Positions 5,466 through 25,013 of a DNA stretch of 64,000 nt are shown here, one piece after another. Below the pieces are notes generated by a model. It saw only the letters and a program-made list of their open reading frames with translations. It did no database searches and was not told the DNA's origin. A program made the translations under genes and the position numbers. Positions within the stretch are counted from its first letter, which is position 1. Each line of letters opens with the position of its first letter. The DNA comes from an uncultured Lachnospiraceae bacterium. GTDB taxonomy: Bacteria > Bacillota > Clostridia > Lachnospirales > Lachnospiraceae. The DNA is taken from assembly GCA_944383265.1 (NCBI GenBank), contig CALWOX010000010.1, positions 1 to 64,000 on the forward strand. Direction: 5' to 3'.

Positions 5466-5556
5466 TATTTCGGTTCTGATCGAACAGGAAACAAAACTCG
5501 GGGTAAGTTTATATTGGGCTGTTCTATAAAAGGTTAAAGGAAAAAAGAGCAGACCA

Positions 5557-5604: not shown

Positions 5605-5632
5605 TTCATGGTTTTATTGCCATTCCACCCTG

Positions 5633-5826
5633 TTCGCGAAATAAATCTCTCAACTATTCGCGATATGAACAGATAACCGCGATATGAATAGAAAATTCAC
5701 TTTTCTGAAAATACCCCTATATTCGCGATATAAACAGAAAAACTTTGCCTCTATTTCCGCGATATAAACAGAATAGAATTTCACGGTGTTCGCGATATGG
5801 CGTTAATTTCCGCGATATAAATAGAA
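5633..5826 (+). repeat. Irregular array of seven copies of a 16-17 bp motif (TTCGCGATATAAACAGA type)
   Basis: Copies share CGCGATATRAA(C/T)AGA; the CGCG cores begin at 5635, 5659, 5678, 5724, 5758, 5791 and 5811. Copy 1 has GAAATAAAT and copy 6 is truncated after GATATGG. Core spacings are 24, 19, 46, 34, 33 and 20 bp, so neither a tandem array nor a CRISPR. All copies point the same way. A related sequence (TCGCGAAATAAACTG) occurs once more at 28803-28817, upstream of the hydrogenase operon. The array ends 22 bp from the rnfB stop codon. Confidence 0.75.
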
Positions 5827-5848
5827 ATTAACACATCAAAAATTATTC

Positions 5849-6649: not shown

Positions 6650-6668
6650 TATCTGTACTCCTCCCTTC

Positions 6669-8008: not shown

Positions 8009-9714
8009 TATTCATTCCCTCCTTCCGAAGCTTCAGAGGAAGCTGCTGTAAATGTCGCTGACATATCAGATGACACTGCGGCGTTTACAGCCGTGTTGGC
8101 CGCATTTACGGCGTTTGTCACTGCCTTTGAGGTTACGGTGGCTCCTGAGATAGCGTTTATTTCGGTATCTCCCGCATTTCCGCTCTTTGTGACTGTAAGT
8201 GACAGGGGAGCATTGTCCGCCATAGCGGGCTTTCCTGTAAACTGATCCTTAAACTCGGGATTCTGAGCCTTCATTCCGAGACCTGCCGTCTCTGTTATGG
8301 TGAGGAAGGATATTCCTGTATTTTTGAGCTCACCGCTTTCATCAGGCATGTATCCGACAGTTATCTCGATATCTCCGTCATAAGCCTCATGGTCAGTAAC
8401 GTCAACGATATATCCCATTACGTTTCCGCTTTCGTCTGTAGCTGTCACAAGATTGTTTACTGTGACATCACCGTATGTTCCGTCTGCGGAAAGGAGCGCA
8501 TTGGTATTTGCGACAGCTTCCGCGAGAGCTTCATTTTCCGACATATCCTTGTACTCGGAGGCTCTGGGAACCAGCTCCTCATACGCCGCATAGAGCGCAG
8601 CCTGATTTGCAGCCTCTATAGGCTCCTTTGTGAGCACATATACTCCTCCCAAAAGTACTCCCGACACAAGTGTTATTACAAAGGTCTTTACAACGACCAT
8701 CCTGTTGAGCTTAGACTCTGCAGACTTGTTTTTATTCTTTTGATATTTACCCTTTCCGAAGGCTGTGGGAACAGTATACTTTTCAATAAGAGGGCAAAGG
8801 ACATTTCCGAGTATGATAGCGTAGGAAACTCCCTCCGCCGAGCCTCCGAAGAGCCTGAAGAGTCCCGTGAGTATTCCCATAACGATTCCGTATACGATCT
8901 GTCCGTTGGGAGTAAGAGGTCCTGTCACATAGTCCGTAGCCATGAAGAAGGCTCCGAATATAAGACCTCCCGCACATATCTCACAGAGGAGATAATAGGG
9001 ATCAAGTCCTCTTCCGGAGAAGAGCGCTGTAAATACGAGCACTGTAAGGATGTAGCTTAAAGGTATCCTTAAGCTGATGACCTTTCTGAAAACGAGGTAT
9101 GCGGCTCCGATAAGAAGAGCTATAACGCTTACCTCACCTATGGTTCCGGGAATGTTTCCTATAAGGAGTGAAGCAAGATCGACCTCTCCGCCCGCCTTAA
9201 GATATGCAAGGGGTGTTGCTCCCGAAACTCCGTCCACGACCTTCGTTGCCCAAGGCATTGCCTCCACGGAGAAATCCGTCATGGGCTTCGCAAAGGAAAT
9301 AAGGAGGAAGCATCTTGCGGCAAGGGCGGGGTTCATAAAGTTCTGTCCCAGTCCTCCGTAGAGCTGCTTTACAACTATTATTGCAAAAACTCCTCCGAGC
9401 ATCGGTATCCATACAGGTATCTCAGGTGGCATGTTCAAGGCAAGTATCATGCCCGTTACGACAGCCGACATATCCTTTATGGTTATGGGCTTTCCCATAA
9501 AATATTCAAATGCGTATTCACTCAGCACGCAGGCAATAACTGTAGCCGCCGTCACAAAAAGTGAATATATTCCGAAGTGATATACTCCCCATAAAAGTGC
9601 GGGAAGCATAGCTATGCAAACATCTGTCATCAGCCTTCTTGTGGTGACTTCCGTCCTTAAATGGGGGGAAGACGACACATGAGGCTTCTCAGGTACAAAT
9701 TCAATATTATTCAT
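8008..9714 (-). CDS. rnfDG: RnfD-RnfG fusion protein of the Rnf complex
   Basis: One open frame of 568 residues contains two subunits that are normally separate. Residues 1-320 are RnfD: many membrane helices and the covalent-FMN motif DGVSGAT with T167. A basic linker (about 321-338, KGKYQKNKNK) leads to residues 339-568, which are RnfG: one membrane helix (340-361), an FMN-binding domain and NAISGATVTS with T526. The operon has no separate rnfG, in line with a true fusion, and order is C-DG-E-A-B. In the RnfG half the usual Asp of the Dxx(S/T)GAT flavinylation motif is Asn520. The tail after 540 is low complexity (Ala, Ser, Thr). RBS GAGGAGGG precedes the ATG. A sequencing error joining two genes is possible but would have to keep frame. 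Confidence 0.9.
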   Translation of the reverse strand: MNNIEFVPEKPHVSSSPHLRTEVTTRRLMTDVCIAMLPALLWGVYHFGIYSLFVTAATVIACVLSEYAFEYFMGKPITIKDMSAVVTGMILALNMPPEIPVWIPMLGGVFAIIVVKQLYGGLGQNFMNPALAARCFLLISFAKPMTDFSVEAMPWATKVVDGVSGATPLAYLKAGGEVDLASLLIGNIPGTIGEVSVIALLIGAAYLVFRKVISLRIPLSYILTVLVFTALFSGRGLDPYYLLCEICAGGLIFGAFFMATDYVTGPLTPNGQIVYGIVMGILTGLFRLFGGSAEGVSYAIILGNVLCPLIEKYTVPTAFGKGKYQKNKNKSAESKLNRMVVVKTFVITLVSGVLLGGVYVLTKEPIEAANQAALYAAYEELVPRASEYKDMSENEALAEAVANTNALLSADGTYGDVTVNNLVTATDESGNVMGYIVDVTDHEAYDGDIEITVGYMPDESGELKNTGISFLTITETAGLGMKAQNPEFKDQFTGKPAMADNAPLSLTVTKSGNAGDTEINAISGATVTSKAVTNAVNAANTAVNAAVSSDMSATFTAASSEASEGGNE

Positions 9715-9732
9715 ACATATCCCTCCTCTCCC

Positions 9733-11145
9733 CTATTTAAGCTTCTCGAGAGCCGCAGCCCTTGCAGCCTCCGCCGCCTCTGCGGCTATCCTCTCGAGCT
9801 CGTCGCGCTGTCTCTTCTCGGCAGCCTCGACTCTTCTCTTATTCATTACCATTTTCCTTGCCTGCTTGAAGATCTGAGTAAGAGGCCTTCTCGCAGGACA
9901 TACATATGAGCAGGTTCCGCACTCCATACACTCCATTCCGTTCAGCTTCTCAAAGCCCTCAAGGTCTCCGTGAGTTGCGGCCTTTACCATAAGAGGAGGC
10001 ACCAGAAATTCGGGGCATGCGCTTACGCAGCGTGCACATCTTATGCAGGGAGTGGTGGGATTCTCCTCCACCTCGTCATGGAGAAACGCACAGAGAGCCG
10101 ATGAAGGCTTTGTAACGGGCACGTCAAGATCAAAGAGCGCCTGTCCCATCATAGGGCCTCCGCATATGAGCTTTTTCGCTTCTCCCTTCAGTCCGCCGAC
10201 TGCAAGAAGTATATCCTTATAGGATGCGCCTATCCTCACCTTTACATTCGAAGGAGTCTTTACCGCATCGCCTGTGATCGTAATCACTTTTTCCATAAGA
10301 GGTGTATTTAATACTACCGCGTCATATATTGCGATCAAGGTGGCAACATTATCAACTATCGCACCCACATCGGCAGGGAGCATTGACGAATTAATATAGC
10401 GCCCTGTAACAGCATTTATGAGCTGTCTCTCACCACCCTCAGGGTACTTGGTCTTAAGGGCTCTTACCTCTATATTGCTCTCACCCGCACAGAGCTTTGA
10501 CATGTGCTCTATGGCCTTGGGTTTATTGTCCTCTATTGCTATGATTCCCTTCGCGTTGGGGAAAAGCTTAAGACATATCTTTAATCCCCCGAGAAGCTTC
10601 TCCCCCTCCTCAAGCATAAGCCTGTAGTCGCTCGTAAGGAAGGGCTCGCACTCTGAACCGTTCGCAATAAAATAATCTATAGCCTCGTCGTTTTTAGGCA
10701 TCAGCTTTACATATGTCGGGAAGCCGGCTCCGCCCATTCCGGTTATTCCGGCATCCTTCACGGCCTTTCTTATATCATCCTTCGAGAGGCTGTCCAAGTC
10801 CCGTTTTTTGCCTGTTCCCGAAAGTTTTTCATATTTTCCGTCACTCTCTATGACTACGGACATCTGCGGCTGTCCGCCCACCTGCATCCTCGGCTCTATC
10901 TTCTTTACCGTTCCTGAGACCGAAGAGATCACATCAGCAGAAATAAAGCCCTGTGCTTCTCCGATACGCTGACCGGCAAGGACCGTATCACCGACCTTTA
11001 CACAGGGATTGGCAGGGGCGCCTATATGCTGAGACATAGAAAAGACATACTCTCCGGGAAGATCAAGTACCTTTATCTCCGAATCCTCACTGAGAGATTT
11101 GCCTTCATAGGGGTGCGCTCCGCCCTTAAATGTAGCACTGCTCAT
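9733..11145 (-). CDS. rnfC: Rnf complex subunit C (NADH-binding)
   Basis: Peripheral NAD(H)/FMN-binding subunit, 470 residues. N-terminal RnfC barrel (GGAHPYEGK, then QRIGEA), an NADH/FMN-binding Rossmann-like core with GMGGAGFPTYVKL near 145, an SLBB-type segment and two ferredoxin-type motifs near 360-400 (CIRCARCVSACPE and CMECGTCSYVCPA). The last 40 residues form a charged, alanine-rich helix (EAAEAARAAALEKLK), as in many RnfC proteins. First gene of the operon; AAAGGAG precedes the ATG by 9 bp and a promoter lies 65 bp upstream. Confidence 0.95.
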   Translation of the reverse strand: MSSATFKGGAHPYEGKSLSEDSEIKVLDLPGEYVFSMSQHIGAPANPCVKVGDTVLAGQRIGEAQGFISADVISSVSGTVKKIEPRMQVGGQPQMSVVIESDGKYEKLSGTGKKRDLDSLSKDDIRKAVKDAGITGMGGAGFPTYVKLMPKNDEAIDYFIANGSECEPFLTSDYRLMLEEGEKLLGGLKICLKLFPNAKGIIAIEDNKPKAIEHMSKLCAGESNIEVRALKTKYPEGGERQLINAVTGRYINSSMLPADVGAIVDNVATLIAIYDAVVLNTPLMEKVITITGDAVKTPSNVKVRIGASYKDILLAVGGLKGEAKKLICGGPMMGQALFDLDVPVTKPSSALCAFLHDEVEENPTTPCIRCARCVSACPEFLVPPLMVKAATHGDLEGFEKLNGMECMECGTCSYVCPARRPLTQIFKQARKMVMNKRRVEAAEKRQRDELERIAAEAAEAARAAALEKLK

Positions 11146-11208
11146 ATGGTTCTGCTCCTTTCTGTCTGTACTGTAGTTGATCCGTCACTGTCTGATTTCA
11201 ACAGCAGT

Positions 11209-11237
11209 ATTATAACACACAAACTTTTGATAATTAA
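11209..11237 (-). promoter_or_regulatory. Promoter of the rnf operon (extended -10)
   Basis: Minus strand TGTTATAAT gives an extended -10 (TATAAT at 11209-11214). The -35 is poor (TTAATT at 11232-11237, 17-bp spacer), as is common with an extended -10. It lies 64 bp upstream of the rnfC ATG. No Rex-type palindrome was seen here. Confidence 0.6.
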
Positions 11238-11388
11238 TATTTGTGGTGTGTTTTATGAGGTACAAGAGCCGATTTAGGCTATTTTTTTATGCATTTTGTC
11301 AAAAATATCTCTTTCAAATTATACAAATTGACAAAAAACTAACAATTTTTGTATTGTACTTTGCATACATGTTCGGTGTAAGCATCCT

Positions 11389-11471
11389 AAAAGCCGGCTT
11401 AGGCCGAAAGCCGTACACGCAAAAAAGCCGTCCGATACATGGGCATATATAATTCCATGCTGTCGAACGAC
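11389..11471 (-). terminator. Tandem terminators of tRNA-Ala
   Basis: Minus-strand hairpin pairing 11427-11442 with 11454-11471 (one bulge, several G-T pairs), followed by TTTTTT (11421-11426). A second hairpin CGGCTT/AAGCCG (11395-11400, 11408-11413) with GCTTTT after it lies immediately downstream. Confidence 0.65.
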
Positions 11472-11480
11472 TTTCATTTA

Positions 11481-11553
11481 TGGAGCATAGGGGGATCGAA
11501 CCCCTGACCTCAAGATTGCGAACCTTGCGCTCTCCCGGCTGAGCTAATACCCC
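11481..11553 (-). tRNA. tRNA-Ala (CGC)
   Basis: 73-nt cloverleaf: acceptor GGGGTAT/ATGCTCC with the G3-U70 pair that identifies alanine tRNA, D arm GCTC/GAGC, anticodon loop TTCGCAA (anticodon CGC), T loop TTCGATC. The 3' CCA is not part of the paired structure as an added triplet. Stand-alone gene with its own promoter and terminator. Confidence 0.95.
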
Positions 11554-11570
11554 GAATTTGTACAAAGCAG

Positions 11571-11599
11571 AGTATAGCACTTTCAGCAAAAAAAGAAAA
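11571..11599 (-). promoter_or_regulatory. Probable promoter of tRNA-Ala
   Basis: Minus-strand TATACT (11571-11576) lies 18 bp before the tRNA 5' end; the -35 region (11594-11599, TTTTCT) is a weak match. Confidence 0.45.
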
Positions 11600-11625
11600 G
11601 ATATCTTTTATAAATTATTCAAAGA

Positions 11626-11931
11626 TTACTTCTTCTCGGTTTTCTGTTTCTTAAGGTTTATAACCTTTTCTTCTTTGGTCTCTTTAGCTTCCTTGGATTT
11701 TCTGGTTGACTTCTTCTCCTCTTTAGGCTCCTCCTGCTGCACAGGTCTTCTCTTTGCGATCATCTGTATGTTTCCGCAGCCCGAGCAGACAAATGCATCA
11801 CAGATAATACCTCCGTCAGGAATAATATCTCCGTCCTCTGACGGTGCACAGTTAGGAACGTAAAATGCGACCCTGCGGTTTACCGGGGGCTTAATAGGTC
11901 TGTATTCTCCTCCGCAAAACGGACACTTCAT
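11626..11931 (-). CDS. Small zinc-ribbon-like protein with charged tail
   Basis: A 101-residue protein beginning MKCPFCGG, with a second pair CSGCGN about 50 residues later: a CxxC...CxxC zinc-ribbon arrangement. The last 35 residues are almost all Lys and Glu (KEEKKSTRKSKEAKETKEEK), a flexible tail. The start at 11931 is preferred over an in-frame ATG at 11961 because AAAGGAG lies 11 bp upstream of it and the earlier one has no RBS. Resembles nucleic-acid-binding zinc-ribbon proteins of Clostridia, but no specific family is assigned. Stand-alone, between two tRNA genes. Confidence 0.75.
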   Translation of the reverse strand: MKCPFCGGEYRPIKPPVNRRVAFYVPNCAPSEDGDIIPDGGIICDAFVCSGCGNIQMIAKRRPVQQEEPKEEKKSTRKSKEAKETKEEKVINLKKQKTEKK

Positions 11932-12159
11932 ATCCGAAAGGTCTCCTTTCAAAAACTTCATATACTCAGTCTGCCGGAAAAACCGGTTTTTGACTTGTAG
12001 GCTTTATTATAAATGATTTTTCCTTCAAATACAATACATAAAGCCACACATAAGCTACATAATGGCTTTGTCTTAAATACAGGCTTTCGCGGCTATGATA
12101 AATAATATTTGATGAAGCAGAAAATAATATTTTTTCAAAATATAAGGTATTTCTTGATA

Positions 12160-12187
12160 TTGTCATGATTTTATAGTATTATATTAT
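12160..12187 (+). promoter_or_regulatory. Probable promoter of tRNA-Gln
   Basis: TTGTCA (12160-12165), 16-bp spacer, TATTAT (12182-12187); the expected start lies about 10 bp before the tRNA. Confidence 0.5.
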
Positions 12188-12204
12188 AGCTGTATTCACA
12201 GCGT

Positions 12205-12276
12205 AGGGCCGTCGCCAAGCGGTAAGGCACAGCACTTTGACTGCTGCATTCGTTGGTTCGAATCCAACCGGCCCTG
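12205..12276 (+). tRNA. tRNA-Gln (TTG)
   Basis: 72-nt cloverleaf: acceptor AGGGCCG/CGGCCCT, anticodon stem CAGCA/TGCTG with loop CTTTGAC (anticodon TTG), T stem GTTGG/CCAAC with loop TTCGAAT. Confidence 0.95.
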
Positions 12277-12288
12277 TTCTCTTGTTTG

Positions 12289-12315
12289 ACGACTGCTATA
12301 TGCGGTCGTTTTTTT
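12289..12315 (+). terminator. Terminator of tRNA-Gln
   Basis: ACGACTGC (12289-12296) pairs with GCGGTCGT (12302-12309), followed by T7. Confidence 0.8.
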
Positions 12316-12429
12316 GTATAAAAGATAAGGGTGGAAGCGTAATTGGAAATAAGTCTGTTCGTTTTCTTACAAAATAAGTCTGTTGTGAAATCTGTTTGTT
12401 TTTTTGTCATGTGCATAGTATTATTTCTA

Positions 12430-12438
12430 TGGTATACT
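12430..12438 (+). promoter_or_regulatory. Possible promoter of the Uma2-type gene
   Basis: Extended -10 TGGTATACT (TATACT at 12433-12438); no good -35. It would give a leader of about 120 nt before the ATG at 12566. Confidence 0.4.
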
Positions 12439-12565
12439 ATGTTCATAAACTAAAAAGGGCTTAACATATATAGCGATAAAGATCCGGGCAAGCGCAGCGG
12501 GAGAAAGTGTAAACAACTATATAAAGGCCGCTGTCGATATGCATATGGAAGGAGGTAAACAGCCT

Positions 12566-13099
12566 ATGGAAGCAGCAAAAAAGATTTACACTGTAAACGA
12601 CATCTATTCACTGCCTGACGGACAAAGAGCCGAACTCATAAACGGTGAATTATACATGATGGCTCCTCCGAGCCGGCTTCATCAACAGATCACAGGGGAG
12701 ATATACAGGCAGACCGCTAACCATATCGCAGAAAATAAAGGACGCTGCAAGGCCTATATCGCACCCTTTGCCGTATTTCTTGACGCTGACGATAAAACCT
12801 ATACCGAGCCCGATATATCTGTTGTATGCGATGAAGGTAAGCTCGATGATAGGGGATGTAACGGCGCGCCCGATTGGATAGTGGAGGTCGTTTCTCCGTC
12901 AAGTCGAAAGATGGATTACATGATAAAGCTCTTCAAATACCAAGCTGCAGGAGTCCGTGAATACTGGATAGTAGAGCCTGTGGAACGAATTGTTACAGTC
13001 TACAGCTTTGAGGCTAATGACCTTCACCGCTATTCATTTAGCGAACCCATAAAGTCCGGAATAATACAAAGTCTTACGATAAACCTTTCCGAGATATAG
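12566..13099 (+). CDS. Uma2 family (DUF820) restriction-endonuclease-like protein
   Basis: A 177-residue member of the Uma2/DUF820 group, with a PD-(D/E)XK nuclease fold. Visible hallmarks: the N-terminal pattern LPDGQRAELINGELYMM, the EPDISVV segment (acidic metal ligand) and PDWIVEVVSPSSRKMDY with the E-x-V of the active site, then AGVREYWIVEP. Start at 12566 because GGAGG lies 10 bp upstream; an in-frame ATG at 12539 lacks a site. No partner nuclease or methylase is nearby, and the physiological role of this family is largely unknown. Single gene followed by a terminator. Confidence 0.88.
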   Translation: MEAAKKIYTVNDIYSLPDGQRAELINGELYMMAPPSRLHQQITGEIYRQTANHIAENKGRCKAYIAPFAVFLDADDKTYTEPDISVVCDEGKLDDRGCNGAPDWIVEVVSPSSRKMDYMIKLFKYQAAGVREYWIVEPVERIVTVYSFEANDLHRYSFSEPIKSGIIQSLTINLSEI

Positions 13100-13122
13100 C
13101 AACAAGGACAAATTATATATCA

Positions 13123-13158
13123 GCTGTCAGCCATTTAATAGGCTGGCGGCTTTCTTTA
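13123..13158 (+). terminator. Terminator of the Uma2-type gene
   Basis: GCTGTCAGCC pairs with GGCTGGCGGC (wobble pairs included) around loop ATTTAATA, followed by TTTCTTTA. Confidence 0.7.
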
Positions 13159-13230
13159 TGCCTTTTTACTCTTTTTCACACTTGTCTGTATCTGATACCC
13201 GATTGTATGAGATGAACCCGTAAAGCGGCT

Positions 13231-13274
13231 TAAAATAAGGCTTATTACCGTCTCAAACAACCGGTAACAAGCCT
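13231..13274 (-). terminator. Terminator of tRNA-Leu
   Basis: Minus-strand arms 13262-13274 and 13237-13250 (GGCTTGTTACCG/CGGTAATAAGCC) followed by TTATTTTA. Confidence 0.65.
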
Positions 13275-13289
13275 CTGCAAACACTCAAT

Positions 13290-13368
13290 GCGGCTAACAG
13301 GACTTGAACCTGCACGGTCTCCCATTGGAACCTAAATCCAACGCGTCTGCCAATTCCGCCATAGCCGC
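13290..13368 (-). tRNA. tRNA-Leu (TAG)
   Basis: Acceptor GCGGCTA/TAGCCGC with A73, anticodon stem TTGGA/TCCAA and loop TTTAGGT (anticodon TAG), variable arm TGGGAGACCGT, T loop TTCAAGT. Slightly short for a class II tRNA because the variable arm is short. Confidence 0.92.
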
Positions 13369-13377
13369 CTGAGTGAT

Positions 13378-13406
13378 ATTCTATATGATTTTTGTATTTT
13401 TTTCAA
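13378..13406 (-). promoter_or_regulatory. Promoter of tRNA-Leu
   Basis: Minus-strand TTGAAA (13401-13406), 17-bp spacer, TAGAAT (13378-13383), ending 9 bp before the tRNA. Confidence 0.7.
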
Positions 13407-13540
13407 TAATAATGGGGTAAAACTTATAACAGGCTTATTTTACTCAAAAAATTCTTTGGCAGATTTCAAAATATATGTAAATGTACTTTAACGATTTTAT
13501 ATATAAGTTTGAAATAACAGCAAATATTATTTTCAGGCCT

Positions 13541-13569
13541 GCAAGGACAAATACTTACAATGTCCTTGC
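13541..13569 (-). terminator. Hairpin at the end of the opp operon
   Basis: Perfect GCAAGGACA/TGTCCTTGC arms just after the gntR stop. No T-run follows on the minus strand, so it may protect the mRNA end rather than terminate. Confidence 0.45.
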
Positions 13570-13581
13570 GTAGCCCTATTT

Positions 13582-14241
13582 CTATAATACCAAGTATTTT
13601 CCGGCCATCTGCCGAAATCCTTTTATGTCTGAAATCAGCTCATTAACAGCCGTTTCTATTTCTCCATTAATAAGACAGTCTACAATCCTCATGTGATTCT
13701 CACAGTCCATATTAAGGTATGTGGTCTTCCATTTGTCCCACTGCATTTGAGCGTATGCTCTCGTAAGTATATTCATACTGTTTTCAAGTGTCTTGCAGCA
13801 ATAACTGTTTCCACAATAAGAATTCAATTTCAGATGAAAGGCTTTGTTGTTTTCCCAGTGTTGCCAAACACTTACTTTTCCTTCAACTCTGCAATAAGTA
13901 TTCGTAAATTCTTTTAATTCACGAATATCATTGCTGTCAATACGTCCTGCAGCTTGTCTCAGGCATTCCGGTTCCAAAATCAAACGAAATCTGATAATAT
14001 CGTCTACCTCTTTTTGGCTGATGGTCACGATCTCATACCCATATCGAGGGTGACTATGGAGAACCCCTTCCTTGCAGAGCTCTATAAGCGCATCTCTTAC
14101 CGGAGATTTACTTACTCCATATTTTTCAATCAGCGGCTTCTCATTTAATATCTCCGACTGCTTATATACTCCCTCAATAATGTCATTTAATATCTGTGTG
14201 TAGACCTGATCCTTCAGCGAAACCGGATTATTCTTCCACAT
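13582..14241 (-). CDS. GntR family (FadR/FCD type) transcriptional regulator
   Basis: A 219-residue regulator: an N-terminal winged helix (about 5-70; LIEKYGVSKSPVRDALIEL is the recognition region, then LHSHPRYGYEI wing) and an all-helical FCD ligand/metal-binding domain (80-215) with NKAFHLKL and ENHMRIVDCL histidines. The start at 14241 has GGAGGG 6 bp upstream; an upstream in-frame ATG (14259) overlaps that site. Last gene of the opp operon, so it likely senses a molecule taken up or formed by the pathway and represses its own operon. The 19-bp palindrome over the opp promoter is the natural candidate operator. The ligand is unknown. Confidence 0.9.
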   Translation of the reverse strand: MWKNNPVSLKDQVYTQILNDIIEGVYKQSEILNEKPLIEKYGVSKSPVRDALIELCKEGVLHSHPRYGYEIVTISQKEVDDIIRFRLILEPECLRQAAGRIDSNDIRELKEFTNTYCRVEGKVSVWQHWENNKAFHLKLNSYCGNSYCCKTLENSMNILTRAYAQMQWDKWKTTYLNMDCENHMRIVDCLINGEIETAVNELISDIKGFRQMAGKYLVL

Positions 14242-14297
14242 TATAGCCCTCCACTTCATACTGTCTGCATATTTTCCACCTCTGTAAGCCTCTATTT

Positions 14298-15248
14298 TCA
14301 GTCTTTAGCAGCTCGTACCGCAGTACGTATCCTTTCAGCGTCAATTTCTGTCGGAAGAGTGCAGTCCGCTCCAAGAAGGAATTTATGCCTTCCCATGCGT
14401 TTGATTACATTGTGGACTTCTGCTTTTATCTCTTCCTCAGTACCATCCACAAGAACTCCTGCCCTGTCATCAAGGCCTCCCAAGATAGCCGCGTCCCCGA
14501 AGAGCTCTCTCCCCTCCTCAAGACTCGGGTTCTGCTCATAAATCCCCCAGTTGACAACATCTATGGGGTAGTCCTTATATCTGTTAAGGTTCAATCTGTC
14601 CTTGCATATGTGTAGGATATTAAAGGCAGGGCGCTTTGCAGCCGCATTTAAAATCTTGAGATCGTAAGGCTTTACGAATTCCTCAAATTCCTCGTCCGTG
14701 TAAAGGTATGATTCTCCGCCCAGAGCGGCATAGTAAATACCGTCCACTCCGATCTTAAGCGCCTCCTCTGTCAGAGTAACCAGGGCATCAGATATCCTCT
14801 CATATGCCTGAGTCACAGCCTTGGGGTTTGCCCTTAAATGCTCTGTGAGAAAGCTGCTGCCTGTCTCATATCCGGCTGTGCCTCCTCTTGCATGCCATGC
14901 GGAGGCAACTATTCCATGTACTGTAAGTAATACTATACCATTATCATGGACTTTATCAATTATTTTTTTTGTTATTTCAAGCTGGTCCTGAATGAACTTG
15001 CTGTTCTTGTCAAACTCAGGTATATTGCCCCAATCCTCAGGCTTATTTATGGGAACCGAGCAGGGGATAACATTCTCATTCATTATCTTCATTATATCCG
15101 TTTCGGATTCCTCAAAAAATTTCAAATGGGCATCGACAGCCGCATCTCCGTGAAAGCATTCCTCGGGGAAATGAAGCCAAAAGCCTGAGGGAATATAGTC
15201 AGGTTCCTGACCTCTTACAGCTGCAAGCGTATTTTCACGACGGTTCAT
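14298..15248 (-). CDS. URO-D superfamily protein, MtaA/CmuA-like zinc methyltransferase type
   Basis: 316 residues with the uroporphyrinogen decarboxylase fold (MNRRENTLAAVRGQEPDYIP start). It carries HIC near residue 216 and a late cysteine in GADCTLP near residue 290, the H-x-C...C zinc pattern of corrinoid-dependent methyltransferases such as MtaA and CmuA rather than of heme-pathway HemE. No heme genes or corrinoid protein genes are near. It lies in the peptide-uptake operon between a dipeptidase and the GntR regulator. AAGGAG precedes the ATG. A methyl-transfer or decarboxylation step on the imported compound is an inference; substrate unknown. Confidence 0.85.
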   Translation of the reverse strand: MNRRENTLAAVRGQEPDYIPSGFWLHFPEECFHGDAAVDAHLKFFEESETDIMKIMNENVIPCSVPINKPEDWGNIPEFDKNSKFIQDQLEITKKIIDKVHDNGIVLLTVHGIVASAWHARGGTAGYETGSSFLTEHLRANPKAVTQAYERISDALVTLTEEALKIGVDGIYYAALGGESYLYTDEEFEEFVKPYDLKILNAAAKRPAFNILHICKDRLNLNRYKDYPIDVVNWGIYEQNPSLEEGRELFGDAAILGGLDDRAGVLVDGTEEEIKAEVHNVIKRMGRHKFLLGADCTLPTEIDAERIRTAVRAAKD

Positions 15249-15286: not shown

Positions 15287-16729
15287 CTAAACTATCTTAT
15301 CCAAAGCCAGCAGAGCCAGCACATAGGCCTTACAGCCGTCTGTAAGCTGTTTTACGGCAATGCACTCATCCGGCTGGTGCCCCTGTCCTCTGCCTGCAGG
15401 AAAAGGGTTCTCTCTGTCCGGTATACCGGGACCGAAGCCTACGGCATTCGTCAGATGTCTTGCATAAGTTCCCCCTCCCATAGTATATGGCTTATATGTC
15501 CTGCCAAGGACCCTGTCGGAAATTTCGCAGAGTACCTTGATCTCCTGTCTTTCGGGAGATACGAAAGAAGGCGAAGAGTCCTCTGTCTCCACAAGCTCAA
15601 AGCCAAGCTCTTCTGCTGCTTTTTCAAGTCCCTCCCTTACCTGCTCGCCGGTAAAGGATGCAGGGTAACGCACATCAAATGACAGTGACAATATACCCTC
15701 CTCCAGTCTTGCCACAGTTCCGCAACAGGTAAGCTTCCCTGTTTCTTCGTCCTCAAATTCTATTCCTGTAGTTTCTCCGTGAGAGCTGTCGGTAAGTACA
15801 GCCAGCCCCTTTACGGCTTTGTTTGCCTTGCCGGTAAGGGCTCTTGTCTCACAGAGTGCCTCCGCCAGCAGGTGAAGAGCATTTACAGAGCCCTCAGGAA
15901 AGGCCGCATGTCGGGAAAGTCCCTTGGCCTTAACTGTGACTTCTCTTCTCTCTTCTTTGCTGATGCTTGCAGATATATTGTCAAAGCCTTCAAGCCGCTG
16001 TCTGATAAGCTCTGCCTCTTCAGGGCTTTCTGTTCTGAGCCTTGCCACAGCCTCAGCAGGTATGACATTTACCACGCTTCCCCCGCAAAGCTCCTTAAGA
16101 TTTCCATCAGAAGGAATCTTTACTGTAGCTCTGAATATACCCTTCTCTCCGTAGCATACAGAAAAGTCCGTGTCGGGAACTATCGAAAAATCCGGCAGTT
16201 TTCCCATTTCCACAAAATGCTCTATATCTCCCATTCCCTTCTCTTCGCTGCATCCGAAGTACAGGAACACATCGTGCTTCAAGGATATGGAATGCTCCTT
16301 CAAAAAGCGCATAGCATAAAGGGCTGCAACAGCCGGCCCTTTATTATCTCCCACTCCTCTTCCTATTAAGTATCCGTCCTTTTCCGTACACTCCAAAGGA
16401 GGATACTCCCAGCCTTCTCCTATGGGCACAACATCCAGATGGGCAAACATTCCCAACTCGCCCCCTTCACTGCCCTTCATGCGGCATCCGCCACAGTAAT
16501 AATCATAATTTTCCGTGTCAAAGCCGTAGTCCTTGGCCTTTTTCAATGCCAGATCCAAAACTTCCCCGCAGGAAGCACCAAAAGGGAACTTTCCTTCCTT
16601 CTCTCCTGATACACTCGGAACGGCTACAAGCTCCCTTATATCTCCGATCATTTCCTCCCGGTGTTCGGCTATCCAACCTTCAATTCTTTTTTCAAGCTCC
16701 GAATCCGGAAACCATGATGTCTTTTCCAT
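15287..16729 (-). CDS. M20 family (PepV/Sapep type) metallodipeptidase
   Basis: Cytoplasmic di-metal dipeptidase of 480 residues, the family length. Metal-site motifs in order: MFAHLDVVPIGEGW near 97 (His, Asp), GRGVGDNKGPA near 128 (bridging Asp), CSEEKGMGDIEHF near 163 (Glu-Glu) and the C-terminal GGGTYARHLTNAVGFGPG. The lid domain lies between about 185 and 390. It follows oppF directly, with AGGAGG beginning inside the intergenic gap, so it should cleave dipeptides delivered by the adjacent ABC transporter. A paralogue of the same family is at 38888-40291. Confidence 0.92.
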   Translation of the reverse strand: MEKTSWFPDSELEKRIEGWIAEHREEMIGDIRELVAVPSVSGEKEGKFPFGASCGEVLDLALKKAKDYGFDTENYDYYCGGCRMKGSEGGELGMFAHLDVVPIGEGWEYPPLECTEKDGYLIGRGVGDNKGPAVAALYAMRFLKEHSISLKHDVFLYFGCSEEKGMGDIEHFVEMGKLPDFSIVPDTDFSVCYGEKGIFRATVKIPSDGNLKELCGGSVVNVIPAEAVARLRTESPEEAELIRQRLEGFDNISASISKEERREVTVKAKGLSRHAAFPEGSVNALHLLAEALCETRALTGKANKAVKGLAVLTDSSHGETTGIEFEDEETGKLTCCGTVARLEEGILSLSFDVRYPASFTGEQVREGLEKAAEELGFELVETEDSSPSFVSPERQEIKVLCEISDRVLGRTYKPYTMGGGTYARHLTNAVGFGPGIPDRENPFPAGRGQGHQPDECIAVKQLTDGCKAYVLALLALDKIV

Positions 16730-16744
16730 ATATAAAGCTTCCTC

Positions 16745-17719
16745 CTAATCAAAAAGGTGGCAGGCAACCTGATGAGTGCCGTTTATATTCTTTAAGGCAG
16801 GGCACTCTGTCTTGCATCTCTCAGTTGCGTATTTACATCTTGTGTGGAAGTGGCAGCCTGTCGGAGGATTTATCGGGCTCGGAACATCTCCCTCAAGCAC
16901 CACCCTCTTCATAGCACAATCCACATCCGGTATAGGTATAGCCGAAAGCAGTGCCTTCGTGTAGGGATGGCAGGGGTTATTATATAGCTCCTTCTTGTCC
17001 GCAATCTCCACAACTCGTCCGAGATACATGACCGCAATTCTGTCACTGACATACTTTACCACACTCAGGTCATGAGAAATAAACAGGTATGTAAGCTCCT
17101 TTTTATGCTTCAGTTTCTGCAGAAGATTCAGGACCTGAGCCCTTACGGAAACATCCAGGGCTGATACCGGCTCATCACATACAACAAATTCCGGATCAAG
17201 GACCAGAGATCTGGCAATAACTATCCTCTGCCTCTGCCCTCCCGAGAATTCGTGGGGATAGCGGTTCATCATCTTTTCAGGCATGCCCACAAGCTCCATT
17301 ATCTCCTTGACCTTCTCTGTCTTTGCTTCATTGTTGCCGGACTCAAAGGCGTCAAGGGGCGCCTTTATCAACTCCAAAACCGTCATTCTGGGATTGAGCG
17401 AAGCATAGGGGTCCTGGAAAATCAGCTGCATCTTCTTTCGCATCTGGCGCATTTCCTCTTTGTGAAAGCCTGTAATATCTGTGCCGTTATATATTATCTT
17501 TCCCTCTGTAGGCTCAACCAAGCGAAGGATGGTCCTTCCCAGAGTGGATTTTCCACAGCCTGATTCTCCTACCACACCCAGAGTCTCCCCTTTGTAGATA
17601 CAGAGGTTTACATTATCCACCGCATGTACCGTCTTCAGGGGTTTCCCCGTAAAGGTTTTAGCTGTTATATAATTCTTTTTCAGCCCTTGTACATCAATCA
17701 GTGTCTGATTCTGCTCCAT
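16745..17719 (-). CDS. oppF: Oligopeptide ABC transporter ATP-binding protein (OppF type)
   Basis: 324-residue ATPase with Walker [10 protein letters not shown] near 55, signature SGGQRQRI near 155, Walker B LVLDPEFVVCDEPVS and the C-terminal oligopeptide/dipeptide extension (PLHTRCKYATERC-like cysteine segment: CHFHTRCKYATERCKTEC). The start at 17719 has GGAGG 8 bp upstream; a GTG three codons earlier sits on the RBS itself. It overlaps the 3' end of oppD by about 26 bp. Pairs with OppD to drive the OppB/OppC channel. Confidence 0.93.
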   Translation of the reverse strand: MEQNQTLIDVQGLKKNYITAKTFTGKPLKTVHAVDNVNLCIYKGETLGVVGESGCGKSTLGRTILRLVEPTEGKIIYNGTDITGFHKEEMRQMRKKMQLIFQDPYASLNPRMTVLELIKAPLDAFESGNNEAKTEKVKEIMELVGMPEKMMNRYPHEFSGGQRQRIVIARSLVLDPEFVVCDEPVSALDVSVRAQVLNLLQKLKHKKELTYLFISHDLSVVKYVSDRIAVMYLGRVVEIADKKELYNNPCHPYTKALLSAIPIPDVDCAMKRVVLEGDVPSPINPPTGCHFHTRCKYATERCKTECPALKNINGTHQVACHLFD

Positions 17720-18716
17720 ATTGTTCACCTCCGTTCAAAGCTTCCCCTTTTTCATATTTAAAGCAGCGTACCTTGTGCCCTCCCACATCATAGAGGCCGG
17801 GCTTTTCCTTCCAACACCTCTCTTTTGCCTCAGGACATCTTGTGCAGAATCGACAACCTTCAGGCATATCATCGAGGTCCGGCACACTTCCCTTTATTGT
17901 GTACAGTTCCCTGTCATCATCCTGGTCCAGACGCGGTATTGATGCCAGGAGGCCTTTGGTGTAGGGATGAAGTGGATTTTTGAAAACACTTCTCGCATCC
18001 GCATACTCAACCTCCTTGCCGGCGTACATTACCATGACATCATCAGCCATCTCAGCCACCACTCCCATATCATGGGTGATAAGCATGATGGATGTTTGGT
18101 CTGTTTTTTTCAGCTCATTCATCAGCTCAAGTATCTGAGCCTGGATAGTCACATCAAGAGCTGTTGTAGGTTCGTCTGCAATCAAAAGCTTTGCATTGCA
18201 GGAAAGAGCCATGGCGATCATAACTCGCTGTCTCATTCCTCCTGAAAGTTGATGGGGGAATTCCTTAAGCCGCTGGGCGGGGGAGGGGATGCCGACCTTC
18301 TCAAGCATCTCCTCCGCACGCTTCCACGCAGCCTCCTTGTCGATCTTGTTGTGAGCCCGTATCGTTTCCACAAGCTGCTTTCCGACAGTCATAACCGGAT
18401 TTAAGCCTGTCATGGAATCCTGAAAAATCATAGCGATCTCATTTCCACGGATCCTGCGCATCTCCTTCTCGCTTTTCTTAAGAAGGTCCTCCCCTTCAAA
18501 GAGGATCTCTCCTCCCGCAACTTTTCCTGATACAGCCGGAATCAGCCTTAAAATGGACATGGATGTCACGCTCTTGCCGCATCCTGATTCGCCCACTATT
18601 CCCAGAGTCCTGCCTTTCCCCACAGAGAATGATACGCCGTCAACAGCAGTCACAATACCGTTTTTTCCGTTAAACTGTGTCTTTAAATCTTTTACCTCTA
18701 TCAGCTTTTCGGACAT
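17694..18716 (-). CDS. oppD: Oligopeptide ABC transporter ATP-binding protein (OppD type)
   Basis: 340-residue ATPase: Walker [13 protein letters not shown] near 40, Q-loop [10 protein letters not shown], signature LSGGMRQRV near 155, Walker [14 protein letters not shown]-loop MLITHDMG, and the C-terminal CxxCxxxxxxxC extension ([14 protein letters not shown]) that in this group can bind an iron-sulphur cluster. The ATG at 18716 has GAGGG 8 bp upstream; an in-frame GTG at 18731 is rejected. Comes after oppA in the operon and overlaps oppF. Confidence 0.93.
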
Positions 18717-18770
18717 TTCAGAATCCCTCACTTTTCTTGTAATCGATACATTAAGCTACATCGGATATTG

Positions 18771-20441
18771 TTATTTGTTTACCTTCCACTCCCATACAAG
18801 CTTATTTACGTTGTAGTCGAGATTCTCAGGACGAACATTTTCAATATCAGAATTATATGCAAACAGGTCATTTGTAAAGTACAGGAAGGCCATAGGCATC
18901 CAGTCCACGATCATCTCCTGATACTCATCATAAATTGCTTTTCTTGCTTCAAATGTTATCTCTTTGGCTCCTGACTCTCCAAGCAGTCCGAGAGCGGGAT
19001 CTGTAAGCTGTGTGAAGTTGTTCATATAGCCGACAGTTATGTTGGGTACGCTCTCAGAAGGATCTACTGAACCTGCGGAACCAATGAAGCATATGTCATA
19101 ATCTCCGTTTCTTGCGTTAGTCAGCAGTGTAGGGAAGTCAAGAGTCTGGATCTTTGTCTTGATTCCTATCTTTTGGAGATCCTGCTGGATCAAGATAGCA
19201 GCTTTTTCACGAACCTCGTTACCTGTTGATACCAGCATATCAAGCTCGCGACTTTCATCCCATCCGGCATCCTTTACTATCTGAGCAGCTTTTTCAGGAT
19301 CGTACTGTACAGGCTCCATAGACTCTATAGCCTCATTATAGTACTGATGGTCATCAGGAAGAGGACCTAAAGCCACACGTCCCTCGCCCTGAAGGAGCTG
19401 ATCAACTATAACCTGCTTATTTATAGCCATGCTCATAGCCTGACGTATCTCTTTTGTCATGTAATCTCTTGATGTGTTCATAGCCATGTACTGATAAGCA
19501 TATGTGGGAACTGACTGGGCTGTAACTCCCTCTGTCTCCTTAGCTGCCTGCCAATCCTGAAGAGGTATCTGGGTGTTGCCGCTGAGGGCATCTATCTCAC
19601 CGCTCATAAGTCCTGAAAGCAGGTTGGAGGACTGGACCTTCTTTACAACCAGTCTGTCGAAGTCAGGTGCTCCAAGGTAGTAGTCCTTGTTTGCGGTAAA
19701 CTGAATGCTCTCTCCTGAGATAGTGCTCTCAAAAACACAGGGGCCTGAGCCTACAGGTGACTGCCAGAATTCAGCGTTCACGAGATCAGCATCTGATATT
19801 TCCGACAAAAGGTGCTTGGGTATAATGAAGAAATCACGGTTTACCATAGCGTACACGATCGAAGGATCCATGGGCTCCTTCAGTGTGAATTCTACAGTAT
19901 GCTCATCCAATGCCTTGACCTCTATGGAATCGGTCGAAAGCTCCATACCGGTCTCATCTGTTCCTGCAAAATACTGCATGCGGATACGGCGTAGATAATT
20001 GAATTCTGAAGATGAAGCCACCTGAGCGCTGTATACCACATCGTCAGCTGTCACAGGCTCGCCGTCCTGCCACTTGGCATTTTCATTGAGGTGATAGATT
20101 ATCTTGTCCTGAGTTTCATTTGTCTCCCAGCTGTCAGCAAGTCTGGGCTCAAAGGTTCCATCTGTGTTTATGATCATCAGTCGGTCGAACATAAGCTCGT
20201 TTACGTTGTCAGCTCCGGTGTTTGTAGTGTTCATGGGCATGAAAGTATCCCAGTCTCCGGTCTGAGCTATAGTCACTACTTTTTCCCCTGACGAAGCATT
20301 ACCTTCAGTCTGAGAAGAGCTGTCAGCCTGCGCTGAAGTAGTCTCTGCAGCTCCTCCGTTTCCGGATCCTCCACAGGCTGTCAGCGCAGCCATTGAAAGG
20401 ACCAGCGCCAATGCTGTGAGCTTTTTTAAATTTTTCTTCAT
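18771..20441 (-). CDS. oppA: Peptide ABC transporter substrate-binding lipoprotein (OppA/DppA type)
   Basis: 556-residue extracytoplasmic binding protein of the SBP_bac_5 family. It has a lipoprotein signal peptide with lipobox LTAC and lipidated C23, then a Ser/Gly/Ala/Gln-rich linker and the binding domain. Typical family segments are visible: YHLNENAKWQDGEPVTADDVVYS near 100, the FTLKEPM strand and LLQGEGRVALGPLP near 355. It is the specificity determinant of the transporter. The operon order permease-permease-SBP-ATPase-ATPase is a common opp/dpp arrangement. The ligand cannot be read from sequence; the neighbouring dipeptidase points to a short peptide. Confidence 0.93.
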   Translation of the reverse strand: MKKNLKKLTALALVLSMAALTACGGSGNGGAAETTSAQADSSSQTEGNASSGEKVVTIAQTGDWDTFMPMNTTNTGADNVNELMFDRLMIINTDGTFEPRLADSWETNETQDKIIYHLNENAKWQDGEPVTADDVVYSAQVASSSEFNYLRRIRMQYFAGTDETGMELSTDSIEVKALDEHTVEFTLKEPMDPSIVYAMVNRDFFIIPKHLLSEISDADLVNAEFWQSPVGSGPCVFESTISGESIQFTANKDYYLGAPDFDRLVVKKVQSSNLLSGLMSGEIDALSGNTQIPLQDWQAAKETEGVTAQSVPTYAYQYMAMNTSRDYMTKEIRQAMSMAINKQVIVDQLLQGEGRVALGPLPDDHQYYNEAIESMEPVQYDPEKAAQIVKDAGWDESRELDMLVSTGNEVREKAAILIQQDLQKIGIKTKIQTLDFPTLLTNARNGDYDICFIGSAGSVDPSESVPNITVGYMNNFTQLTDPALGLLGESGAKEITFEARKAIYDEYQEMIVDWMPMAFLYFTNDLFAYNSDIENVRPENLDYNVNKLVWEWKVNK

Positions 20442-20517: not shown

Positions 20518-21399
20518 TTATTTTTTTCTTATTTTTGTCCTTGAATCCAGGGCATCCCTCATGCCGTCACCGATAAAGTTGATACTTGAGACTGTGAGTA
20601 CCAGAAGTATTCCTGCCGGCACCCACATCCAAGGGCGGGTGGAAAGCACTGTTATGGACTGGGCCGCGTAAAGGATATTTCCCCATGAAGCCTCCGGGGG
20701 CTGAACTCCCATTCCCAAAAAGCTCAGGGAGGACTCCTGTATTATTGCCTGAGCTGTTCTGAAGGTAAAATTAATGAGTATAGGGGCAAAGGCATTAGGT
20801 ATCACGTACTTTATAAGTATAGGGAGATCCTTCGTACCAACTGCCCTTGCAGACTCCACATACTCCTTCTCACGGACGGAGAGCACGTTTCCGTATATCA
20901 GCTTGGCAAAATCTGTCCATCCCAAAATTCCGATAACGAAGATTATGGTCCACACAGAGGGATCAAATACTGAGACGAGAACCAGTATAAGTATCATTGA
21001 GGGGAAGGACATGAAGATGTCCGCAAGCCTCATTATCACTGTCTCCCATATGCCCTTGTAATATCCTGCAACAAGTCCCAGGGGCACACCTATCATTAAG
21101 CTGATGATAGCCGAGAGCAGTCCAACCATCAGGGATACTCTTCCGCCGTACACAAGTCTCGCAAAGAGATCTCTTCCCGTATCATCAGTTCCCAAGATAT
21201 GTCCGGGCCCGGGAGCCGCGCTGAAATTAAGCACATCCGAGGTGTAGGGGTCAAGCTCCATCACCATTGGAAGGAGTATTACCAAAAGAACTTCAACAGC
21301 TATGATCGTCAGTCCCAACATAGCCAGCTTGTGCTGTGAAAACTTTTTCAGGACGTCGCGGCTGTACGAGTCTTTTTTTATTTTTTCTTTCTTTTCCAT
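20518..21399 (-). CDS. oppC: Peptide ABC transporter permease (OppC/DppC type)
   Basis: 293-residue permease with an N-terminal OppC-type helix (KLAMLGLTIIAVEVLLVI) and about six membrane helices. The ATPase-docking EAA loop is recognisable as EYVESARAVGTKDLPIL near residue 180, and the C-terminus has WGNILYAAQSI and FIGDGMRDALDSR, typical for OppC. RBS AGGAGG before the ATG; 11 bp after oppB. Confidence 0.94.
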   Translation of the reverse strand: MEKKEKIKKDSYSRDVLKKFSQHKLAMLGLTIIAVEVLLVILLPMVMELDPYTSDVLNFSAAPGPGHILGTDDTGRDLFARLVYGGRVSLMVGLLSAIISLMIGVPLGLVAGYYKGIWETVIMRLADIFMSFPSMILILVLVSVFDPSVWTIIFVIGILGWTDFAKLIYGNVLSVREKEYVESARAVGTKDLPILIKYVIPNAFAPILINFTFRTAQAIIQESSLSFLGMGVQPPEASWGNILYAAQSITVLSTRPWMWVPAGILLVLTVSSINFIGDGMRDALDSRTKIRKK

Positions 21400-21410: not shown

Positions 21411-22364
21411 CTATCGACTCTCTCTGATCTTAGGATCCAAAATACTGTAGATAATATCTGTAATAATGTTTCCCAGAAGAACCGCTGCAGCAATCACCAC
21501 CGTGATTCCCATGATAGTGGGATAGTCTCTGGAGTTTATGGACTGTACCATGAGGCTTCCGAGACCCGGCCAGCTGAACACCTGCTCAGCTACCACAGCT
21601 CCGCCGAACAGGAAGGGTATCATTGTACTCAGCACTGTAACAACAGGTATAAGCGCATTCCTCAGTCCGTGTACGATTATTACCCTGAGCTCCATAAGTC
21701 CCTTTGCTCTTGCTGTCCTTATATAGTCTTCTGAGAAGACTTCCATCATGCTTCCCCTTGTCTGTCTCAAAATGCTTCCCACATTAAAGACTGTCAGGGT
21801 CAAACATGGAAGTATCAGGTGTCTCACCATTGAGCCCAATGTCTCTATTCCGGAGTCATACATTCCTCCCATGGGAAGTATCCCCACCTTGACCGCAAAC
21901 ACATAGATAAATACAAGACCTGTAAAAAATGTAGGGGTCGATGCTCCTATAAATGAAAGGCCTGACGATATATAATCCCAGGGAGAGTAGGGCTTGTAGG
22001 CTGAAACTATTCCCAGAGGGACAGCGATCAGAACAGACAGCACTGTTGACGCTATGGTCAGGATCAGCGTAGGTCCCAGTCTCTCAAGGACCATGCCCAT
22101 TACAGGAAGATTCGTCCTGTAAGAGGTTCCCAGATTTCCCTGAAACAGGTTTTGCAGCCATCTCAGATACTGTATGATCACCGGCTGGTCCAGTCCCATC
22201 TGTGCCCTCAAGGCTTCCATATCCTCTTTAGTGGCCATAGGGTCAGCCATCAGCATTTCCAGCGGGCTTCCCGGTGCCAGCGAAGACAGAAAGTAGACAA
22301 GGATCGTAATTCCGAAAAAGGTAGGAATCGCAATCAACAGGCGTTTAATAACATATTTCGTCAT
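21411..22364 (-). CDS. oppB: Peptide ABC transporter permease (OppB/DppB type)
   Basis: 317-residue permease, first gene of the operon. N-terminal signature MTKYVIKRLLIAIPTFFGI and SLAPGSPLE, then about six membrane helices and the EAA-type loop SEDYIRTARAKGLMELR near 225, ending IIYSILDPKIR. AGGAGGGG lies upstream of the ATG. The promoter and 19-bp palindrome lie 88-116 bp upstream. Confidence 0.94.
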   Translation of the reverse strand: MTKYVIKRLLIAIPTFFGITILVYFLSSLAPGSPLEMLMADPMATKEDMEALRAQMGLDQPVIIQYLRWLQNLFQGNLGTSYRTNLPVMGMVLERLGPTLILTIASTVLSVLIAVPLGIVSAYKPYSPWDYISSGLSFIGASTPTFFTGLVFIYVFAVKVGILPMGGMYDSGIETLGSMVRHLILPCLTLTVFNVGSILRQTRGSMMEVFSEDYIRTARAKGLMELRVIIVHGLRNALIPVVTVLSTMIPFLFGGAVVAEQVFSWPGLGSLMVQSINSRDYPTIMGITVVIAAAVLLGNIITDIIYSILDPKIRESR

Positions 22365-22439
22365 ATCATTTTCCCCTCCTGTGCAAGGCGTCAGTCACAG
22401 CTTAAAGTCAGCGACAAAAAGCTGTTGAACATATCGTTA

Positions 22440-22480
22440 ATAATATTACTAATATTATCAGCCTTTGTAAAATATGTCAA
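22440..22480 (-). promoter_or_regulatory. Promoter and operator-like palindrome of the opp operon
   Basis: Minus-strand TTGACA (22475-22480), 17-bp spacer, TAATAT (22452-22457): a near-consensus promoter. A perfect inverted repeat ATAATATTA-N-TAATATTAT (22440-22458) covers the -10 and the expected start point. A repressor bound there would block initiation; the GntR protein at the end of the operon is the obvious candidate. Confidence 0.75.
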
Positions 22481-22686: not shown

Positions 22687-23190
22687 ATGTCAATTAAACA
22701 TAATGAGCCTAAATTTACCGATGATGCCACTTTAGCCTGCAGAGGAGCTGTAGAGCACCGCGCTACTTGGATGGCTCTTCTCTATGCAGAGGCAAAGAAG
22801 ATGGGATTGGATGCGGAAAAGATGTGCCGTGAAGCAATAAGCAAATGTGGCCATATACATGGAGAGACACTTTACAAGCCCAAATGTCAGGATCCCGAAA
22901 GTGCTGCAGATTTCGGAAAGGTATTCTTCTCGGGACAGGGCGCAAAAAATATGGAGATCGATGTATTGGAGGCGGATCACGATGAATTAGTGGCGGAGTT
23001 CCATCAGTGTCCTCTTGTTCAGGCTTGGGAAAAGCTCGGCTACACCGGCAAGGAGCTTGAGCTCCTCTGCGACATTGCAATGGACGGAGATCGCGGTATA
23101 GCCGATCAGATGGGTCTTGCTCTGGATATAGAGAAGACTATAGCTGCAGGTGACGGAGTATGCCGTCTTCACTTCCGCAAGAAGAAATAA
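22687..23190 (+). CDS. L-2-amino-thiazoline-4-carboxylic acid (ATC) hydrolase family protein
   Basis: 167 residues that match the ATC-hydrolase-like family: FHQCPLVQAWEKLGYTG near 112, LLCDIAMDGDRGIAD near 137 and the ending IAAGDGVCRLHFRKKK. Characterised members hydrolyse 2-amino-thiazoline-4-carboxylate to S- or N-carbamoyl-cysteine in cysteine formation, but most family members have no tested function. The gene is divergent from the opp operon, sharing its control region, and is followed by peptidase T. The N-terminus includes AVEHRATWMALLYAEAKKMG, the usual helical start. Role with the imported peptide is an inference. Confidence 0.85.
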   Translation: MSIKHNEPKFTDDATLACRGAVEHRATWMALLYAEAKKMGLDAEKMCREAISKCGHIHGETLYKPKCQDPESAADFGKVFFSGQGAKNMEIDVLEADHDELVAEFHQCPLVQAWEKLGYTGKELELLCDIAMDGDRGIADQMGLALDIEKTIAAGDGVCRLHFRKKK

Positions 23191-24640: not shown

Positions 24641-24642
24641 AG

Positions 24643-24716
24643 GGTGGGTAATGGGACTCGAACCCACGACCTTCAGAGCCACAATCTGACGCGCTAGCCA
24701 ACTGTGCTATACCCAC
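24643..24716 (-). tRNA. tRNA-His (GTG)
   Basis: Acceptor GTGGGTA/TACCCAC with C73, and a G encoded at position -1 (24717) as expected for histidine tRNA; anticodon loop TTGTGGC (GTG), T loop TTCGAGT. One mismatch in the D stem. Confidence 0.93.
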
Positions 24717-24790
24717 CATATTGATTACGGCTTTCGCTTAAAAATATACAGGCGGTAATTGCCGCCCGCAAAGCGTTGCTTTCATCTTAA

Positions 24791-24864
<74 letters not shown>

Positions 24865-25013
24865 ACTTATCTTCATCAAGATAAACACCGTCACTTGACA
24901 GTGCTTAAATATAATAGTAAAAAAAATGTATTTTGTCAATAAAAATTTGATTTAATTTCAACTTTAATTTCAACTTTTTATCTTTTTAATATCTTATCAT
25001 CTCTTTATTCGGG

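Follow-up and report, generated by a model that had tools for sequence, protein, structure and literature searches.

A tandem array of 11-bp boxes over an opp promoter in a Lachnospiraceae bacterium as the probable operator of a GntR/FCD repressor encoded in the same operon

We analyzed a 64,000-nt stretch of DNA from an uncultured Lachnospiraceae bacterium (hereafter, the window), whose minus strand carries an operon in the order oppB, oppC, oppA, oppD, oppF, M20 dipeptidase, URO-D family gene, and gntR. Family searches identified the first gene as an oppB-type permease (21411–22364) and the third as an oppA-type solute-binding protein (SBP_bac_5; 18771–20441), while the oppC-type permease (20518–21399) and the oppD- and oppF-type ATPases (17694–18731 and 16745–17728) were named from position and reading, without a family search. 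These genes are followed by a dipeptidase of the Sapep type, near PepV (15287–16729), and by a URO-D family protein whose nearest NCBIfam models, MtaA/CmuA (methyltransferase), match below their cut-offs (14298–15248). The last gene (13582–14259) had been predicted to encode a GntR/FCD protein, and both the gene order and matches to PF00392 and PF07729 above the curated cut-offs, i.e., a GntR winged helix-turn-helix (HTH) followed by an FCD domain, bear this out. Since gntR ends a run of genes that overlap or are separated by gaps of at most 76 bp, it is probably cotranscribed with the opp genes and subject to the same regulation. Promoter-like matches at 14959–14932 and 14267–14240, near the gntR start or within the URO-D gene, could supply gntR with a promoter of its own. 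Divergent from opp lie an ATC hydrolase gene (PF14196; plus strand, 22687–23190), a possible second target, and peptidase T. The opp and peptidase block is flanked by tRNA genes at 11481–13368 and 24642–24865 (Ala, Gln, Leu; His, Arg).

The opp promoter consists, on the minus strand, of a −35 hexamer TTGACA (22480–22475), a 17-nt spacer, and a −10 hexamer TAATAT (22457–22452), with 10 of 12 matches; the TGA preceding the latter makes it an extended −10. As originally predicted, this near-consensus promoter is overlapped by a perfect 19-bp inverted repeat, ATAATATTA-C-TAATATTAT, at 22440–22458, exactly in the letters given (ATAATATTA-G-TAATATTAT on the opp strand). With up to three mismatches allowed, two such sites were found in the window, this one among them, versus 0.06 expected. 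In the source genome (2.3 Mb, 97.5% complete), it is the only perfect copy, and sites with up to three mismatches are no commoner than those of the reversed-pattern control (18 versus 17). To weigh a chance AT-rich palindrome, the 322-bp intergenic region was dinucleotide-shuffled 5000 times; 14 of the shuffled sequences contained an odd palindrome with arms of at least 9 nt. The palindrome by itself is thus unlikely to be due to chance, yet it is not decisive. An Rfam search at the opp promoter gave no match up to E = 1. Between the array described below and the ribosome-binding site, the opp 5′ leader contains an inverted repeat, ACAGCTT (22425–22419) and AAGCTGT (22403–22397, minus strand), a possible hairpin; it is partly kept in two of the promoters considered below (L088 and L097), which have CGCCTTGCACAGGAGG in common after the repeat.

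The palindrome is located at a seam within a larger structure, an array in which an 11-bp, near-palindromic box (TRATA-N-TATYA) is repeated in tandem at a 12-bp pitch with one spacer base, usually G. In the window, the array reads TGATAATATTA g TAATATTATTA a CGATATGTTCA on the minus strand. Proposed operator box 1 (22450–22460), which matches TRATANTATYA at 10 of 10 positions, includes the extended −10 (TGA-TAATAT); proposed box 2 (22438–22448) also matches at 10 of 10, and proposed box 3 (22426–22436) is degenerate, with 7 of 10. Since each box is approximately its own reverse complement and neighbors are one base apart, a 19-bp palindrome results where boxes 1 and 2 meet. None of the 5000 shuffled intergenic sequences reached the two-box or three-box score of the array, with a box definition partly derived from the window site itself. 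Two boxes with at most two mismatches occur at two places in the source genome, versus three for the reversed pattern: the opp promoter and a site in a membrane-protein frame (a polysaccharide flippase by eye), which was judged to be a chance match. Another candidate, a CTGATAATATCAG palindrome centered on the −10 and suggested by two related loci (L062 and L065), turned out to coincide with a single array box.

Relatives of the regulator, again encoded within this operon, were found at L062, L063, L064, and L065 (85, 71, 70, and 66% identity), and their DNA-binding part is nearly invariant across these loci and the window. As L063 and L064 end before oppB, two oppB promoters, L088 and L097, were taken from G326, the genome that carries L063. 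This genome of 180 contigs contains two diverged oppB promoter regions, on contigs C72 (L088) and C56 (L097), perhaps from two strains binned together. A search for OppB in 397 genomes of the family added no close orthologue to these, as the best remaining matches were 56 to 60% identical; a whole-promoter pattern search of the same genomes returned the window, G083, and five matches with three mismatches each.

The five promoters (window, L062, L065, L088, and L097) share the −35 hexamer, the 17-nt spacing, the −10, and three in-phase boxes, including the degenerate third, while the letters of the boxes vary. The array overlaps the −10 in all five, and they align without gaps from the −10 through CAAYAGC, which rules out a 12-bp deletion between the window and L065. 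The array reads TGATAATATCA g TAATATTATTA a CGACATGATCA in L062, TGATAATATCA g AGACAATATTA g TAATAACATCA in L065, and TGATATTATTA g AGACAATACCA g TGGTATTACCA in both L088 and L097. Conservation of the palindrome upstream of orthologous opp operons, proposed as a check of the original prediction, was not observed: L062, from a sister species, carries ATAATATCAGTAATATTAT, with one change, and the more distant L065, L088, and L097 lack the 19-mer. The perfect palindrome is a by-product of the array and not the conserved element. Over the 299 bp that precede oppB, the window and L062 differ at 14 positions, 3 in the 35 bp of the array and 11 in the remaining 264 bp, so the array shows no higher conservation than the adjacent DNA.

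Recurrence of the array was scored as the match to two TRATANTATYA boxes with 10 informative bases each, at a threshold of at least 18/20. At a pitch of 12, 13 of 31 subfamily loci, the strongest GntR matches with 1.5-kb flanks, reached this threshold; in three of the 31 (L005, L006, and L035), the scored stretch covers the gntR end of an opp operon but does not extend to its array. No locus did so at pitches of 8, 10, 11, 13, 14, or 17, while at pitches of 9, 15, and 16, 18 was reached in 3, 2, and 1 loci, and 17 or more in 9, 7, and 2; we read these matches as a 3-bp echo within the AT-rich box. At a pitch of 12, none of 26 other GntR/FCD loci had an array (maximum score of 15), and none of 16 other oppB loci reached 17 (maximum of 15) in a control that leaves out L097, an orthologous promoter scoring 17. 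Since the box consensus was built from the window, L062, L065, L088, and L048, only the remaining loci test it. Among seven held-out loci (L141 and L143 to L148) from 392 genomes of the order, not seen before the box was fixed, six have arrays scoring 19 to 20; as four of the seven belong to one genus, this corresponds to three genera with the array and one without. Arrays comprise two to five boxes (five in L148), in odd as well as even numbers, and loci with arrays come from at least 19 genera of the window’s family.

When 397 genomes were searched with the array pattern alone, 52 matched, versus 20 for the reversed pattern. Part of the matches, 29 loci, was inspected: Six, including two already known, are immediately followed by a target-family gene, and the other 23 lie within open frames 120 codons or more in length and look like chance. 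Arrays found by pattern alone precede SDH_alpha-like, HydA-like, and URO-D genes. They include one array located 3.2 kb away from gntR in L036 and another located 20 kb away from gntR in L042, both loci having earlier been scored negative. A looser, GC-tolerant box brought out no arrays in negative loci. In 12 of 26 arrays, a −10–like hexamer that starts in the array, or at most 12 bp before it, is preceded at 17 or 18 nt by a perfect TTGACA. The −10–like hexamer of the best pair falls within the array in 22 of the 26, partly by construction since the box includes TANTAT.

A member of one of five gene families starts at most 242 bp downstream of each of 30 tabulated arrays: SDH_alpha-like in 17 cases, oppB in 5, the URO-D family in 4, HydA-like in 2, and, as the sole target-family gene, ATC hydrolase in 2. 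This tabulation is descriptive, the families having been listed after inspection and four of the arrays (L154, L157, L163, and L173) having been chosen from the pattern search because a target-family gene was present. Some families occur close together. In L079 (G109, 2875–14491), a four-box array precedes a hydantoinase-A–like gene, and opp genes, an ATC hydrolase gene, and a subfamily gntR are located further along the same stretch. In L173 (G398, 1501–3018), a two-box array found by pattern is followed by a URO-D family gene and then a hydantoinase-A–like gene. URO-D family genes adjoin arrays repeatedly (window, 14298–15248; L053, L059, L080, and L173).

The regulator itself differs from FadR at a recognition residue. 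In the available text of PMC4494728, FadR Arg35 and Arg45 (HTH positions 28 and 38) are described as contacting G, and the common FadR-subfamily box is given as TKGT/ACMA, with GT and AC usually 3 nt apart. Mapped through Table 1 of that paper, position 28 of the window protein, whose recognition helix reads SKSPVRD, is Lys41, a position that varies within the subfamily, and position 38 is Lys51 in place of Arg. Lys occupies position 38 in 34 of 64 loci compared. An array (score of 17 or more) is present in the locus stretch in 19 of these 34 and in none of the 30 Arg loci, a contrast that partly reflects kinship, since the Arg loci come mostly from GntR groups other than this one. None of the five Arg members nearest to the subfamily (L009, L050, L052, L060, and L061) has an array. 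Fifteen Lys loci lack an array in the stretch, and 8 of them have one elsewhere: at opp (L005, L006, and L035), at more distant sites (L047, in L079; L036, in L154; L042, in L157), or as weak arrays scoring 17/20 before URO-D genes (L049, in L084; L057, in L080). For the other seven (L037, L038, L045, L054, L056, L058, and L141), none was found in the fetched DNA.

The boxes retain the 4-3-4 geometry of FadR operators, TRAT-ANT-ATYA, in which two tetranucleotides stand 3 nt apart, and lack the GT/AC core. Across 62 of the 76 boxes in 26 arrays, counted after four near-duplicate arrays were dropped, position 3 is A in 58 and G in 3, whereas at position 9, T occurs in 49 and C in 10. Both GT and AC occur in one box only in L088 and L097, among all 76 boxes; their box 3, TGGTATTACCA, is an exact TKGT-N3-ACMA site, the canonical FadR-subfamily sequence as given in the excerpted text of PMC4494728. 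With GntR and FCD domains in the protein and an 11-bp palindromic box of 4-3-4 geometry, the system resembles FadR-subfamily regulation as described there; a further likeness is that extra half-sites 7 to 12 nt from the site center are reported in that text. It differs in the change of the core G to A, in the Lys at the position of FadR Arg45, and in the tandem repetition of whole boxes at a 12-bp pitch.

We consider it likely that the array serves as a tandem operator of three boxes for the GntR/FCD repressor that the last gene of the same operon encodes. As arrays of this kind recur near relatives of this regulator in other members of the family, they are very probably the sites at which it represses such genes. 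What is read from the DNA itself is the presence and phase of the array, its position on the promoter, its recurrence at orthologues, and its association with the GntR subfamily; from these we infer binding, cooperativity, repression, the transcription start site, cotranscription, and a ligand. Each 11-bp box would be a dimer site of FadR geometry in which A replaces the usual G of GT/AC, and the 12-bp pitch with its single spacer base would let successive dimers bind side by side. Because box 1 carries the −10 and boxes 2 and 3 cover the likely start region, bound dimers would block RNA polymerase and exclude it from the operon, gntR included. A ligand, probably an imported or metabolized amino acid–like compound, would release the repressor; the target genes, too, point to an amino acid– or peptide-derived ligand. 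Autorepression by the product of the operon’s last gene, the simplest model of the original prediction, is thus the best-supported one, given an array over the −10 in five promoters and its recurrence near gntR homologues. The part that did not stand is the identity of the operator, since the 19-bp palindrome is not conserved upstream of orthologous opp operons.

An alternative is that the seam palindrome is nonetheless the operator, bound by one dimer through AT-only 9-bp half-sites. The palindrome is perfect in the window, where few shuffles reach the same, and two boxes of L040 and of L044 meet in a seam that forms a perfect palindrome, its arms 11 bp long. Pair statistics do not separate the box center from the seam as the working dyad. 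However, the half-sites about the seam point opposite ways in L040 and L044, arrays occur with odd as well as even box numbers, and the palindrome is broken in L062 and absent from the three more distant promoters. We therefore regard the seam operator as unlikely.

It is also rather improbable that the GntR protein binds the array as an activator or controls mainly the divergent ATC hydrolase gene. The latter begins on the opposite strand at a distance of 226 bp, and in L039 and L051, the gene that follows the array likewise encodes ATC hydrolase. However, an array over the opp −10 and start region occupies the position of a repressor site, and L065 has the array and no ATC hydrolase match.

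The AT-rich site could instead be used by another regulator, for example CodY, which commonly regulates peptide uptake in Firmicutes. The seam matches the CodY consensus box at 10 of 15 bases, and better matches are found near the arrays of L065 (11/15) and L048 (12/15). Yet the latter lie partly or wholly outside the arrays, the matches in L062, L088, and L097 are only 8 to 9 of 15, and arrays track the GntR subfamily. With no match to CodY (PF06018) in the 97.5% complete source genome, while the controls from Bacillus subtilis and Lactococcus lactis were found, CodY was rejected, and the reading is highly improbable. Equally hard to sustain is the view that no regulator is involved and that an AT-rich palindrome fell by chance on a near-consensus extended −10: TGATAATAT alone is an extended −10, palindromes form easily in AT-rich DNA, two-box matches occur within coding sequences (one in the source genome), and conservation in L062 is no higher in the array than beside it, but no shuffle reached the array scores and six of seven held-out loci have arrays.

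Returning to the proposed three-box operator of the GntR/FCD repressor, close parallels besides the FadR-subfamily sites are found in other GntR-type regulators. According to the available part of PMC8012715, Escherichia coli NanR occupies a (GGTATA)3 operator as three dimers, with cooperative binding of neighbors. The likeness is that of a GntR-type repressor on a repeat operator, with binding predicted in our case, and cooperativity may be expected from the strict pitch together with the NanR precedent. The NanR repeats, as described there, are short, direct, and bound asymmetrically, whereas each TRATANTATYA unit is near-palindromic and repeated at a pitch of 12, so the array does not consist of NanR-type (GGTATA) direct repeats. 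BioR, another FadR-subfamily member, has the box TTATMKATAA in the excerpts of PMC4494728. Like the boxes considered here, it lacks GT/AC, and two tandem sites precede a biotin operon in the accessible portion of PMC4554459. That portion describes a 10-bp box with a 2-nt center at biotin genes of alpha-proteobacteria and mentions no 12-bp arrays. Searches of open PMC text retrieved no paper with the box letters and did not bring up the operator code or the regular tandem form.

The principle of an autoregulated GntR operon is ordinary; the operator code and regular tandem form are unusual. We tentatively suggest, as a generalization that may well prove too broad, that a subfamily widespread in the family has exchanged the Arg-G contact for a Lys/A code, lines up its dimers at just over one helical turn, and uses box number (two to five) to set how strongly it represses genes of peptide uptake and of amino acid–derived ring or ammonia-lyase–like genes. 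The array offers an operator that can be tested for GntR/FCD proteins whose recognition residue breaks with the family rule, so the effect of Lys for Arg on base choice can be asked directly. It would also tie SDH_alpha-like, ATC hydrolase, URO-D–like, hydantoinase-A–like, and opp genes into one regulatory theme, and the identity of the ligand would name the pathway.
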